DNA of 43,992 nt, taken from positions 1 through 43,992 of the forward strand of contig JAGWGB010000011.1 in the NCBI GenBank assembly GCA_028867595.1. Direction: 5' to 3'. The notes beneath the pieces are model-generated. The model was not told where the DNA came from, made no database searches, and saw only the letters and a program-made list of their open reading frames with translations. Each line of letters starts with the position of its first letter. Position 1 is the first letter of the stretch. Of this stretch, positions 13,055 through 43,992 are shown one piece after another. The position numbers and the translations under genes are program-made. The stretch is from Nitrososphaerota archaeon. GTDB lineage: Archaea; Thermoproteota; Nitrososphaeria; Nitrososphaerales; Nitrosopumilaceae.

Positions 13055-13768
13055 ATGAACAACGATATCGTTGTTAGAGAGATCAAGCCAGTTAACATAG
13101 AAGGAGGGTTTGTCATAGATGGATTTCCTTATGCCGGTTTGGCAAATGCAATAGCAACAGAATCCATGATAAATACGACATCTCAATTTGAGTTAGCAGG
13201 AGTTCTTGATTCAGAACTTTTCCCACCAATTAGCATCATAAGAGATGAGGTACCAGGATTTCCTGCAAGGATATTTGCCAATGAAGAATTAAAAGTTGCA
13301 ATATTTTCATCCTATCTTACTCCTCACGAATCTCTTCATCGCGAAGTTGCAAGAACCATGTTGAAATGGGCAAGTGAGCACAAATGCTCACTTGTAGTAA
13401 GCAGCTCTGCAGTAAAAACAGAGGAGAAGCCCATGGTGATAGGGGTGGCAAGCACTGCAGAAGCAAAAAAACGACTAACAGATGCACAAATTCCAGTGCT
13501 CAAAAATGGCACTGTACCTGGAATACCTGGAATTTTATTAAATGAAGGAGCAATGGCAAAAATCAATGTCATAGTTCTATTATACAAAGGCCAAGAAAAT
13601 GGACCTGATTTTAGAGCAGGTGCAGAAATTTGTATGGCAATGTCAAAACTTGTTCCAGGTGCATCTTGTGATTTCAAAACCTTGATTGGTGAAGCCGAGA
13701 GCATTGAACAACATATGAAGCAGGCAGAAGAAGAAGCAGGACCTCTGCGAGATGCAATATACGGATGA
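13055..13768 (+). CDS. PAC2-family protein (proteasome assembly chaperone-like)
   Basis: 237 residues from ATG 13055 (244 from ATG 13034). The PAC2 family is recognisable from FVIDGFPYAGLANAIATESMI, the segment PPISIIRDEVPGFPARIF, and an alpha/beta core with GTVPGIPGILLNEGA. Eukaryotic relatives help assemble the 20S proteasome; archaeal members (PbaB-like) are linked to proteasome or chaperone function, largely by homology. I prefer 13055 because of the TATA box at 13025-13031. The stop overlaps the next ATG as ATGA, so the 81-residue gene downstream is translationally coupled. Confidence 0.9.
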   Translation: MNNDIVVREIKPVNIEGGFVIDGFPYAGLANAIATESMINTTSQFELAGVLDSELFPPISIIRDEVPGFPARIFANEELKVAIFSSYLTPHESLHREVARTMLKWASEHKCSLVVSSSAVKTEEKPMVIGVASTAEAKKRLTDAQIPVLKNGTVPGIPGILLNEGAMAKINVIVLLYKGQENGPDFRAGAEICMAMSKLVPGASCDFKTLIGEAESIEQHMKQAEEEAGPLRDAIYG

Positions 13769-15532: not shown

Positions 15533-16627
15533 GTGCAGCATAGGGTAATTTTTCATATCGATTTTGATTACTTTTATGCACAATGTGAAGAATTGAGAAA
15601 TCCAGAATTGAAGACAAAACCAGTGATTGTATGTGTGTTCTCAGACAGGGGCGGCGATAGCGGGGCCGTCGCAACTGCAAATTATCAAGCAAGAAAATAC
15701 GGAGTAAAATCAGGCATGCCAATAAAATTTGCAAAAAGAAAGATGGAAGAATTATCAGATGTAGTATTTTTGCCCACTGACTTTGACTATTATTCAGAAA
15801 TTTCTGAATCTGCAATGAGCATCATTAGGACATATGCAGATATTTTTGAATATGTGGGAAGAGATGAAGCGTATCTTGATGTCACAAAAAGAACTGAGGA
15901 AGACTTTACAAGGGCATCGCATCTGGCTCAACAATTAAAAAATGCACTACGTCAAAGCATCAAGCTTTCATCAACTATTGGAGTATCATCAAATAAGCTG
16001 GTCTCAAAGATTGCTACTGATTTTAAAAAGCCAGATGGCCTTACAGTAGTAGAACCAGATAAGATAGAATCATTTCTTGATCCATTACCAATCAAGGTCA
16101 TACCAGGAATTGGTAAAAAATCTGAAGAAAAATTTCATGAGTTGAGCCTTGAAACCATATTAGACCTAAAAAAACTAGATGTGTTTACACTCAACGGTCT
16201 ATTTGGTCGAAAAACAGGAACTTACATCTACAATGCGGCAAGAGGAATTGACGAGTCGCCAGTATCACCCAGAGGAGATCCAATACAATACAGCAGAATA
16301 ATTACACTAAAACAAGACACAAAGGATTTTGAGTCATTATCAAAAGACCTCGAACAGATATGTGAAGACATACAGAATGCAATAGTAAAAGACAATCTTG
16401 TATTCAAATCAGTAGGAATCCAGTTTGTACAAGAAGACCTCTCAAACAGAACAAAATCCAGAATGTTAAAGAATCCAACTTCTAGTCTTGATGAATTAAA
16501 AAAAACAGCGCTTCAATTACTTAAAGAATCATTGGTGGACCAAAGGCTGCTGATAAGAAGACTAGGGGTCAAAGTTTCTGACTTTTCAGAAGTATCTGGG
16601 CAAGCAGACATTACAAATTTCTTCTAA
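15533..16627 (+). CDS. dinB: Y-family DNA polymerase IV (DinB/Dpo4)
   Basis: 364 residues, the usual length. Catalytic residues by alignment to Sulfolobus Dpo4: Asp10 in HIDFDYFYAQ (with Tyr15 as steric gate), and Asp111-Glu112 in GRDEAYLDVT. The thumb helix-hairpin-helix (VIPGIGKKSEEKFHEL) and little-finger domain follow. The final residues QADITNFF form a PCNA-interacting peptide, expected for a polymerase recruited to the sliding clamp. It copies past DNA lesions. The start is GTG at 15533. The stop overlaps the convergent HExxH gene by 4 bases. Confidence 0.96.
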   Translation: MQHRVIFHIDFDYFYAQCEELRNPELKTKPVIVCVFSDRGGDSGAVATANYQARKYGVKSGMPIKFAKRKMEELSDVVFLPTDFDYYSEISESAMSIIRTYADIFEYVGRDEAYLDVTKRTEEDFTRASHLAQQLKNALRQSIKLSSTIGVSSNKLVSKIATDFKKPDGLTVVEPDKIESFLDPLPIKVIPGIGKKSEEKFHELSLETILDLKKLDVFTLNGLFGRKTGTYIYNAARGIDESPVSPRGDPIQYSRIITLKQDTKDFESLSKDLEQICEDIQNAIVKDNLVFKSVGIQFVQEDLSNRTKSRMLKNPTSSLDELKKTALQLLKESLVDQRLLIRRLGVKVSDFSEVSGQADITNFF

Positions 16628-31700: not shown

Positions 31701-33872
31701 TTGGTAAAAAAAGATGAATTACTCCAAATGCGTGTTGGAGAAGCCAAACAAAGAGATGTAGGTAAAAGACGAGCTAGAATCGAACCAGAAGCAATGGAAT
31801 TTTTGAAAGCTGAGCCTGGAGACATGATAGAGATTATTGGAAAGAAATCTAGTTGTGCAATAGTATGGCCAGCTGATGATGACAACAAAGCACCAGACAT
31901 GATACGAATAGACGGCCAAACAAGGAAAAATGTCGGTATTGGGATAAATGATCTAGTTACAGTAAGGAAAGTGGTTGCAAAACCTGCAAAGACTGTCGTA
32001 CTTATGCCGGTAAATGGAAATGTCACAGTAGATAAGGAATTTACAGATTTTGTCAAAAATAGGCTCAAAGGTTTACCGCTTTCAGAGGGAGACGAAATAT
32101 CAGTAATGATATTGGGAAATTCAATGGACTTTAAAATTCACAAGATTTCTCCAAAAGGCGTTGCCAAGATAGAGCGTGGTACGTCACTTACAATTTTAAC
32201 TGAAACATCAGTTGACAAGAAGATTCGTGTTACATATGAGGAGATTGGAGGGCTCAAGGCACAGATAAACAGAATGCGCGAGATTGTCGAGCTGCCTCTA
32301 AAACATCCCGAAGTCTTTACTAGACTAAACATAGAGCCACATAGCGGAATTCTCCTTTATGGCCCACCAGGATGCGGTAAAACATTGATTGCCAAAGTAC
32401 TTGCAAGTGAATCAGAGGCAAATTTCTATTCCATAAATGGACCTGAAATAATGAACAAGTATTATGGAGAGACAGAAGCAAGACTACGAGATATTTTCAA
32501 GGAAGCAAAGGATAATGCTCCAAGTGTAATATTCATTGATGAAATAGACGCAATTGCTCCTAAAAGAGAAGAAGCGTACGGAGACGTTGAGAAAAGAGTT
32601 GTAGCTCAATTGTTAGCATTGATGGATGGACTAACAGACAGAGGAAATGTAATAGTGTTGGGAGCAACAAACAGACCTGAAAGTGTGGACCCAGCATTAA
32701 GAAGGCCAGGTAGATTTGATAGAGAAATTGAGATATCAGTACCAAACGCAGACGGCAGACTAGAGATTCTTCAGATTCACACAAGAGGCATGCCTCTTGC
32801 AGGAGATTTTGATCTGAAAATTTTAGCTGCAGAACTTCACGGATATACAGGGGCAGACATCAAGTCTCTTTGCAGAGAGGCTGCAATGAAAGCCCTTAGA
32901 ACATTTTTGCCTGAGATTGACATGGAGACTGAGAAAATATCTTCTGAAGTTTTACAAAAGATGTCCATTAGTCTTCACGACTTTTACGACGCAATGCATG
33001 AAATTGTACCCACTGCTATGAGAGAATTTTATGTTGAGAGTCCAAAGGTGTGGTGGAAGGACGTTGGCGGTTTAGATGACGCAAAGAGAACACTAAATGA
33101 CAATTTGATTACCGCAATAAAAGAGCCTGCCAAGTTTCAAAAGATGGGAATCAAACCTCCAAAAGGAGCGTTGCTTTACGGACCTCCAGGATGTGGAAAG
33201 ACCTTGCTTGCAAGAGCACTTGCAACAGAGAGTGGTGGAAACATGATATTAGTAAGAGGAGCCGAGATCCTTTCCAAGTGGGTGGGAGAATCTGAAAAAG
33301 CAATTAGAGAGATTTTCAGAAAGGCAAAGACATCATCCCCATGCATCATAATTTTTGACGAATTGGATTCCCTGGCAAGATCAAAATCTCTTGAAGAGGG
33401 CGGAGTTGGAGAAAGATTGCTCAGTCAGTTACTAACAGAGATGGAAGATGGAGGAGCTTCAAGAGTGATTGTTGTTGGAATATCAAATAGACCTGATTTG
33501 ATAGACCCTTCGTTACTTAGACCAGGTCGTTTGGACTTGATACTTTTCATCCCAGCACCTGAAGAAAAAGGAAGATTTGAGATAATCAAGGCGCTTACAC
33601 GACAAATGCCACTAGCTGGCGATGTTGACTTGAAAGAGATTGCACTTGCAACAAAGGGATATACTGGGGCAGACCTCGTGGCAGTATGTAGAGAGGCAGC
33701 AGTTCAGGCAATGAGAAACAATACACCCAAGATCAATAACATAGACTTTGCTGCAGCGTTGAAAGTCATCAAACCCTCAATTACCAAAGGTGTTGAGGAC
33801 TGGTATTCATCAATCAAAGATAACATATCGTACGCATTACCAAAACCAATAGACAAGGCATTTTACGGTTAG
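31701..33872 (+). CDS. cdc48: Cdc48/VCP-type AAA+ ATPase
   Basis: 723 residues. An N-terminal double-psi barrel/Cdc48 domain ([15 protein letters not shown]) is followed by two AAA+ modules. First: GPPGCGKT (about 219-226), Walker B IFIDEIDA, arginine-finger region [10 protein letters not shown]. Second: GPPGCGKT (about 493-500), [14 protein letters not shown]. It unfolds proteins, often for the proteasome. The C-terminus KAFYG lacks a clear HbYX docking motif. The start is TTG at 31701. A small winged-helix gene follows after 2 bases. Confidence 0.97.
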
Positions 33873-42168: not shown

Positions 42169-42191
42169 ATGAGAAAAAATTCTTTGGAACG

Positions 42192-42200
42192 ATATTTAAA
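42192..42200 (-). promoter_or_regulatory. TATA box for the mrp operon
   Basis: TTTAAATAT on the minus strand, centred 27-28 bases before the ATG at 42168. Confidence 0.55.
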
Positions 42201-42415
42201 CATAGGCAACAAGTTCATGACCAGAGTTGGAAACTATATTGGGAAATTCCACTTCATGATAAATGGGAATAAATGGTACAATTTTGGGGGGGTCAGTGGC
42301 TTCACAAGTTTTTGCCTGCGCCCTCTCGATTTCACATCATGTTTTTTACAAAGAACTGACAAAATCCATGTTTTACGCCATTACAACCTGTACTGACAGA
42401 AAGGTTTTCTGAGGT

Positions 42416-42658
42416 TTACTCAGATTCGATGGTTTCATTCGTACGAAGGACCTTGGTCGAGCAAATTTTGTCATTTATGCGAATCTCTTCAAGTATCTCA
42501 TCAAGGTAATCGTCGCTAGGAAAAGTTAACTTGGCTACTAAATCATAGTGGCCAATAGTTGGTTGAACCTCTTTTATGTATCCTGTCCTAGTCAAGTTTT
42601 GGACAATCTCGTTTTCTTTGCCTTGCTCGCATCTCATTAAAACATATGCAGAGGGCAT
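42416..42658 (-). CDS. stand-alone Lrp/AsnC ligand-binding (RAM) domain protein
   Basis: 80 residues from ATG 42658 (91 from TTG 42691). RAM fold: AYVLMRCEQGKENEIVQNL, PTIGHYDLVAKLTFPSDDYLDEIL, KICSTKVLRTNETIES. No DNA-binding helix-turn-helix. The inner start is favoured by a GGAGGG Shine-Dalgarno-like sequence about 8-9 bases upstream, a rare case here of a likely leader. It is the second such domain in the window. Confidence 0.85.
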   Translation of the reverse strand: MPSAYVLMRCEQGKENEIVQNLTRTGYIKEVQPTIGHYDLVAKLTFPSDDYLDEILEEIRINDKICSTKVLRTNETIESE

Positions 42659-42912
42659 ATTTACTGCCCTCCGTGATTTGGCGTGCGGCAACTGCCAAAA
42701 CCGTCAAATCCAACAATGTATTTTTCCACATCACGTGTTGGTTGGGTGTCCACGGTATATCTATCTCATAATGACAATTAAGTCGCTCTCACCCCTGCAG
42801 TAAGGAAGATCAATTCCTAAAAATTTTCCATTGGGTTTTATTTACAGGTGACAGTTTTTCATCTAGTTGAAAATTCCTATGGTAGATAAGATTTCAAAAC
42901 CAGAAAAATTTT

Positions 42913-42985
42913 ACCAAGCTTTGTTATTGTAAATGATTTCATTTTACTGCAATTTTTTAAAAAAATGTGAAAAACATAGCTTGGT
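42913..42985 (+). repeat. 13-base inverted repeat upstream of tbp
   Basis: ACCAAGCTTTGTT at 42913-42925 and AACATAGCTTGGT at 42973-42985 are inverted copies with one mismatch, 47 bases apart. The second arm abuts the TATA box of tbp. Possible activator or repressor site. Confidence 0.5.
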
Positions 42986-42992
42986 ATATATG
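42985..42992 (+). promoter_or_regulatory. TATA box of the tbp gene
   Basis: TATATATG, centred about 29 bases before the TTG start at 43018 and directly before the palindrome. A strong site for TBP itself, so feedback is plausible. Confidence 0.6.
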
Positions 42993-42993
42993 A

Positions 42994-43015
42994 TGTACTG
43001 TACATGTACAGTACA
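42994..43015 (+). promoter_or_regulatory. perfect 22-base palindrome at the tbp transcription start
   Basis: The half site TGTACTGTACA is followed at once by its exact reverse complement, giving a 22-base palindrome without spacer. It lies between the TATA box (42985-42992) and the TTG start (43018), covering the expected transcription start. Position and symmetry suit a dimeric repressor operator. Confidence 0.75.
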
Positions 43016-43017
43016 CA

Positions 43018-43596
43018 TTGGAATTAAAGCCAATAGTCAGCATAGAAAATGTTGTAGCAACAGGCTTTGTGGACCAAAGAGTTGACTTGGGAAAAATTCT
43101 CAAAGAATTTCCCGATTCAGAAAAAAAGGAGAACTTTCCAGGATTAATCTTTAAGATCCAGTCTCCGAGGTCTACCACACTCATATTCACTTCTGGAAGG
43201 ATGGTATGCACAGGCACGAGATCTGCAAATCAGGCAGTTACTGCAATAAGAACAGTAGCAGAAAAGTTGCAAAAGGCAGGCATTGTTACAAAAGATCACT
43301 TGGAGATCACGGTCAGAAACATTGTCGCGTCTGCAAATCTTGGATATCGAATTCATCTAGAATCTGCTGCAAAGAGCATGCCAAGATGTATGTACGAGCC
43401 AGAACAATTTCCTGGTCTGATTCACAGAATGGTAGATCCAAGATCTGTCATACTGCTATTTGCTTCAGGAAAGTTGGTCTGTGCAGGCACAAATAAGGAG
43501 GCAGAGACGTATAGGGCGGTAAACAACCTACGTGCAACACTTGTTGAAAAAAACCTGATGCATGGGCTTGATAACATCAAAAATCTCACGGCATAA
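43018..43596 (+). CDS. tbp: TATA-box-binding protein
   Basis: 192 residues, two imperfect repeats of about 90. First repeat: SIENVVATGFVDQRVDLGKI, FPGLIFKIQSPRSTTLIFTSGRMVCTGTRS. Second: VRNIVASANLGYRIHLESAA, FPGLIHRMVDPRSVILLFASGKLVCAGT. It binds TATA boxes and recruits TFB and RNA polymerase. The start is TTG at 43018; a normal TBP N-terminus (ELKPIVSIENVVA) begins here. Its promoter carries the palindrome described above. Confidence 0.97.
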   Translation: MELKPIVSIENVVATGFVDQRVDLGKILKEFPDSEKKENFPGLIFKIQSPRSTTLIFTSGRMVCTGTRSANQAVTAIRTVAEKLQKAGIVTKDHLEITVRNIVASANLGYRIHLESAAKSMPRCMYEPEQFPGLIHRMVDPRSVILLFASGKLVCAGTNKEAETYRAVNNLRATLVEKNLMHGLDNIKNLTA

Positions 43597-43713
43597 GGTA
43601 GGACGAATGTGTGCAAGTCGGTCAGGATGGATCAAAATGTCCAATTTGTGCTCAATAACTTGAAAGTATCGTATCCAAAGATTCATAAATTGAAATTTTA
43701 TCAGTTTTTTTGG

Positions 43714-43992
43714 ATGTTTTCTATATCAACCCTTACTGATGTAGTTAGAGTACCTCCCAAATTGTTTGGTGAGTCGCTCAAAAAGGCAGCCATTACAATA
43801 CTTAGAGAAAAGTACGAGAGCATGATAAACCCAGAACTTGGCTATGTCATAATGATAATGGACACCAAGGTGGAAAAAATGGGAAAGATAAAGATAAGAA
43901 AGAGCATTCGCCAGATGTTAAAAAGAAAGAAAAAAAGAAAAGAAAAAGTTTGTGCTTTCAGGACAATTAAGCAGATTCTATTCTTGTTACTT
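43714..43992 (+). CDS. rpo7: Rpo7 (RpoE', Rpb7-like) N-terminal part, cut by the window edge
   Basis: 93 codons to the window end. The first 57 residues read as the Rpo7 tip domain: MFSISTLTDVVRVPPKLFG, LREKYESMINPELGYVIMIMD. From about 43870 the frame turns into a Lys/Arg-rich run instead of the expected IPGDG-type segment leading to the S1 domain. In a +1 frame the same bases give a more typical acidic-basic linker (DKDKKEHSPDVKKKEK) but reach a stop. An indel in the A-rich tract, a real frameshift or a divergent paralogue are possible. ATG is preceded by CATAAATTG about 27 bases upstream. Confidence 0.7.
   Translation, partial: MFSISTLTDVVRVPPKLFGESLKKAAITILREKYESMINPELGYVIMIMDTKVEKMGKIKIRKSIRQMLKRKKKRKEKVCAFRTIKQILFLLL

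Follow-up and report, generated by a model that had tools for sequence, protein, structure and literature searches.

Here we report that the core promoter of an extra gene for the TATA-binding protein (TBP), found in a 43,992-nt stretch of DNA from a Nitrososphaerota archaeon (hereafter the window), contains an exact 22-bp perfect palindrome, and that the core of this palindrome fits a family of paired TACNGTA boxes that recurs in the corresponding position at further promoters of Nitrosopumilaceae genomes. The reading of the palindrome as an operator is well supported by sequence comparison; that a regulator binds it, that the effect is repression rather than activation, which protein is responsible and to what signal it responds are points that we infer. 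Taken as a whole, the explanation that we find probable is that the palindrome is the operator of an occluding repressor, that it belongs to this Nitrosopumilaceae site family with a 114-aa winged-helix protein as candidate regulator, and that the TBP gene was recruited to the regulon.

The palindrome and the extra TBP gene

The palindrome, TGTACTGTACATGTACAGTACA, lies between the TATA box and the TTG start codon at 43018 (Table 1), as claimed by a sequence-only reading of this DNA, and the claim was confirmed. The local order is GGTATATATG-A-TGTACTGTACATGTACAGTACA-CA-TTG, or, with the upstream part written differently, TTGGTATATATGA-TGTACTGTACATGTACAGTACA-CA-TTG, and the flanking bases (42993 and 43016) are unpaired. 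No perfect palindrome of the window is longer, and the longest in about 670 kb of related DNA measure 20 bp. Base composition predicts about 0.018 perfect 22-bp palindromes per window and 0.67 per genome, and none appeared in 60 windows simulated with a first-order Markov model. The sequence-only reading had held a chance origin at this position to be very unlikely; a perfect 22-mer palindrome somewhere in the genome is not rare, while its exact position in the TATA-to-start interval is. The 22-mer also nearly repeats the palindromic 4-mer GTAC (four copies with 5/6/5 spacing), and because such near-tandem units give part of the symmetry, its perfection overstates its information content. Palindromes of at least 18 bp number 4 in the window versus 0.15 in simulations, and three 18-bp perfect palindromes (13058-13075, 15792-15809 and 32782-32799) lie within coding sequences.

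Table 1. Features of the promoter region and its surroundings (window coordinates)
Feature	Coordinates	Strand	Basis
Segment of about 1.5 kb present here and missing from five relatives	42169..43713	none	Synteny
Stand-alone Lrp/AsnC ligand-binding (RAM) domain gene, divergent; likely start Met at 42655	42416..42655	-	Pfam AsnC_trans_reg, E 3.1e-6
TATA box (TATATAT) of the extra tbp gene	42985..42991	+	Sequence; TTGGTATATATG context also at Nitrosotalea class-B tbp promoters
Perfect 22-bp palindrome, predicted repressor operator	42994..43015	none	Core fits TACNGTA-N3/4-TACNGTA family
Conserved core TACTGTA-CATG-TACAGTA, with an 11-bp centre-to-centre distance between its two boxes	42996..43013	none	
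Extra divergent TBP paralogue, 192 aa, TTG start	43018..43596	+	Pfam TBP, E 4.9e-48; tree; paralogue alignment
rpb7 (RNA polymerase subunit Rpo7), right-hand neighbour	43714..43992	+	Pfam SHS2_Rpb7-N, E 5.5e-13

The gene behind the palindrome has no alternative in-frame start between the TTG and the preceding stop. Its product matches Pfam PF00352 in two stretches that correspond to both TBP repeats and cover the full length, and residues 3-180 align with the solved TBP 1mp9. The sequence-only reading took it for the usual, constitutive tbp, a view that did not hold: the genome contains four TBP genes, the other three group with the paralogue classes of relatives, and the window copy is at most 63% identical to any other TBP found and sits on a long end branch of the tree (1.5 changes per column). 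No orthologue was found among 60 related genomes, and the gene together with its operator site was seen in one genome only. A viral origin was considered and rejected, as a search of viral contigs found no relative of this TBP; haloarchaeal plasmid TBPs among those listed reach only about 39-45% identity to it.

The surroundings also differ from those in relatives. In five of them the adjacent, divergent genes mrp and rpb7 are separated by about 100 bp; here the gap measures 1.5 kb and contains the RAM-domain gene and the TBP gene. The closest relatives of the RAM protein (46-63% identity) are in four Nitrosotalea genomes, and the close relatives of the genome as a whole are Nitrosotalea and other Nitrosopumilaceae, names that we assign from sequence matches. 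The first 58 residues of rpb7 are 93-100% identical to those of relatives, and homology is lost about 100 bp before the contig end, owing either to a misassembly or to a genuine truncation. The assembly is a fragmented MAG of which the window is contig 22, and the tbp locus stands 1 kb from the end of that contig. Because of the low identity, the long branch and the insertion between mrp and rpb7, the window TBP reads as an acquired or strongly diverged accessory TBP and not as the housekeeping copy.

A family of TACNGTA sites

The pattern described here was reached stepwise on data already seen, from the 22-mer to its half-site, then to a GTAC double box and finally to a TACNGTA pair. The full 22-mer was rejected as a repeated element, as the genome holds no second copy with up to three mismatches and the relatives searched gave weak matches only, in three of them. 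None of the roughly 100 other TBP promoters inspected contains it. Conservation upstream of tbp in close relatives, by which the sequence-only reading had proposed to judge the operator, is thus missing at the other tbp genes; the search for orthologues of this particular TBP, however, came up empty, and it is at other genes that the type of operator is conserved. Nor did the half-site TGTACNGTACA, whose further copies that reading had proposed to look for, define a regulon, its genus-wide count not being enriched over the reversed control. A near-copy, TGTACTGTACA-A-TGTACAGTACA, occurs in another Nitrosotalea genome, where a TATA-like stretch precedes it and what is probably the start of an unrelated gene follows. 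The LexA SOS box, considered for the CTGT...ACAG symmetry, has the consensus spacing CTGT-N8-ACAG, and was rejected on the CTGT-N6-ACAG of the window.

The GTAC double box, GTACNGTAC-N{1,10}-GTACNGTAC, was matched in 24 of 400 genomes of the order, mostly immediately ahead of a 35-aa gene that shows a C2H2 zinc-finger pattern and no Pfam match and is followed by a coiled-coil gene. In Nitrosotalea this zinc-finger promoter reads TACCGTA-NNN-TACGGTA or a variant of it, which suggested TACNGTA-N-TACNGTA as the real unit, and the double box was superseded as a site definition by this better description. The site family is defined here as two TACNGTA boxes with 3 or 4 bases between them, and the window core has both boxes with N4 spacing.

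In the archaeon's own genome TACNGTA-N{2,6}-TACNGTA has 10 matches, versus 1 for the reversed pattern. Nine of these are upstream of a gene start, usually directly 3' of a TATA box, and one is within a coding sequence; the former belong to two radA copies, the zinc-finger operon, trpE with its divergent small neighbour, the 114-aa gene, an adjacent pair of ribbon-helix-helix (RHH)-like genes with three sites, and the window TBP. The corresponding P values (5e-8 for the count, 4e-10 for position) are uncorrected for the earlier refinement of the pattern on the same data, and the positional one rests on an assumed zone of 2000 genes x 60 bp. A fairer test, with the pattern fixed beforehand, is provided by 15 further Nitrosopumilaceae, in which the N3/N4 form has 64 matches versus 7 for the control, in genomes that were hand-chosen and in several of which zinc-finger sites had already been seen. 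Three genomes outside the Nitrosopumilaceae gave 0 matches to this form.

Among the site contexts retrieved, four loci recur: radA, with 16 sites in 15 genomes; the zinc-finger operon, with 33 sites; trpE, with 13; and the 114-aa gene, in 14 genomes. A few species carry added targets, the window TBP among them. At radA, the zinc-finger operon and the 114-aa gene the sites lie 3' of a TATA-like box and end -1 to +4 nt from the start; the window site, also 3' of its TATA box and with 4 nt between core and start codon (+4), fits this group. The trpE site directly follows a TATA-like box, 45-102 nt before a start codon that was chosen by script and is perhaps not the true one. Across sites the box positions are conserved and the N positions variable; the window has TACTGTA on both sides, and most conserved sites have TACCGTA/TACGGTA. 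The identity of the DNA-repair gene radA is given by a Rad51 match (E 1.6e-90), and the name trpE is putative, read from the sequence. No published description of the TACNGTA site was found in the literature searched, chiefly papers available without subscription.

The same type of site in the same place at other promoters across the family supports the suggestion of the sequence-only reading that the palindrome is a regulator-binding operator placed to block initiation. It also weighs on two other explanations. The palindrome might lack any regulatory role, a few near-tandem copies of palindromic GTAC having formed a long palindrome by chance; the genome-wide expectation, the lack of enrichment of TGTACNGTACA in the genus and the absence of the palindrome from every other tbp gene agree with this, but its placement exactly between TATA box and start, and its match to an enriched, conserved site family with the same geometry, make such an origin decidedly improbable. 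Alternatively, the palindrome, being self-complementary and adjoining the TATA box, might act as RNA in a 5' hairpin, or TBP itself might bind it for feedback, as the sequence-only reading had envisaged. At the usual archaeal TATA-to-start spacing, the TATA box at 42985-42991 places the transcription start near 43013-43018, so that most of the palindrome would be untranscribed; other TBP promoters are without the palindrome, the analysis yielded no indication that TBP regulates its own gene, and genes with no relation to TBP carry the same type of site. We consider both forms of this explanation scarcely credible.

Several further repeats were observed. In Nitrosotalea, promoters of class-B tbp (four loci and others) share the TATA context of the window tbp and have immediately behind it a different inverted repeat, either GGTAC-N6-GTACC or GGTTATA...TATAACC, so that this tbp may also be under regulation. 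The promoters of the zinc-finger/coiled-coil operon have a further inverted repeat, GGTAA-N8-TTACC, shortly upstream of the TATA box. Both radA copies of the genome, on contigs C103 and C137, carry the operator; at only 4.2 kb, C103 might represent a strain variant or have been misbinned. Three copies of TGTACNGTACA form an iteron-like tandem array with an 18-bp period in the same genome (contig C83, positions 200-246 of the extracted locus L194), about 300 bp upstream of an ORF resembling a secreted protein. An exact copy of the 22-mer occurs in the viral contig IMGVR_UViG_3300020112_000420 (locus L160, 297-318), which has no evident relation to this archaeon.

Candidate regulators

The best candidate regulator is the product of the 114-aa gene, because its gene has a TACNGTA site in the promoter in 14 of the 16 family genomes inspected, and because the protein is strongly conserved. 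It is a predicted winged helix: the AlphaFold model shows this fold with an added N-terminal helix (mean pLDDT 77.3; wing region 87-95), and a Foldseek search of the PDB returned AspA of pNOB8 (4rs8, E 7e-4) as best match, followed by MarR/ArsR/SmtB types. AspA is also the top match of the sequence profile, a weak one (E 0.034). We regard this protein as the likeliest repressor and a candidate autorepressor, a proposal to which we give an even chance. In Nitrosotalea the 114-aa gene frequently has a divergent RAM-domain neighbour (seven loci), as the window TBP does, and its RAM protein is 43% identical to that of the window; RAM genes are numerous (14 matches in the archaeon's own genome), and for this reason the likeness is only noted.

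The same type of operator could instead be bound by a small RHH-like protein. RHH dimers fit paired boxes about one helical turn apart, and the genome has two adjacent small genes with three TACRGTAAANTTACYGTA-type sites at their own starts, N4-spaced like the window site; one of the two genes encodes a protein with a weak RHH_5 match (E 0.032). The other protein has no Pfam match, the spacers of these sites are of the form AA..TT (GTAA..TTAC) versus CATG in the window (GTAC..GTAC), and RHH-like genes with such sites were seen in no more than 2 of the 16 family genomes inspected, as against 15 with the site family. An RHH-like regulator is on this evidence unlikely, and the 114-aa winged-helix protein is preferred.

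Known systems and proposed function

Parallels exist for several parts of this system. Stf76 of pSSVx (PMC4027180) is an archaeal winged-helix autorepressor that acts by promoter occlusion; it resembles the 114-aa candidate in its small size, its winged helix and the location of its sites, which lie in its own promoter and over the core promoter, and differs in that here one conserved type of site is common to several chromosomal genes, including radA, and binding is predicted. AspA (PDB 4rs8, 5k5q), which the 114-aa protein matches best both by fold and by profile, is a centromere-binding protein of plasmid pNOB8, whereas the 114-aa protein is chromosomal and linked to promoter sites, and the two are 19% identical in the fold alignment. 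The RHH cell-cycle repressor of Sulfolobales, aCcr1 (mentioned in PMC12796447), is a small archaeal repressor acting on several promoters, as the RHH-like proteins might be; its target genes differ from those found here. Haloarchaea have several TBP genes per archaeon, proposed to serve different promoter classes (PMC2121645). The genome studied here likewise has several, and differs from the haloarchaeal case in that its extra TBP gene carries an operator and in the low identity to the listed plasmid TBPs noted above.

We propose that the palindrome acts as a double-stranded DNA operator, on which a dimeric or tandem-dimer repressor would occupy the two TACNGTA boxes, cover the DNA from the TATA box to the transcription start and so prevent loading of RNA polymerase at the initiation region, leaving the accessory TBP gene silent until a signal releases the repressor. 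Repression is the simplest reading because a site lying over the interval from TATA box to transcription start should keep the polymerase from loading. The extra TBP, inserted beside rpb7, would in this lineage have joined a TACNGTA regulon whose targets would include radA, the zinc-finger/coiled-coil operon, trpE with its divergent neighbour and the 114-aa winged-helix gene.

As a regulatory element the palindrome is of a known sort; what is notable is which genes share the site and that an extra TBP is one of them. To our knowledge few regulons have been defined in ammonia-oxidizing archaea, and the present analysis contributes a defined operator sequence, a set of conserved targets with the recombinase gene radA among them, and a winged-helix protein as candidate autoregulated regulator. 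Judging from the shared site, the extra TBP is probably switched on and off together with the radA gene set. It is a rather distant prospect that an extra TBP under the same repressor as radA amounts to an archaeal analogue of a stress-controlled alternative sigma factor; if it did, derepression would alter part of the TBP pool and redirect transcription genome-wide. These observations suggest that an extra TBP can come under the control of a specific repressor in archaea, a point of relevance to the role of multiple TBPs.
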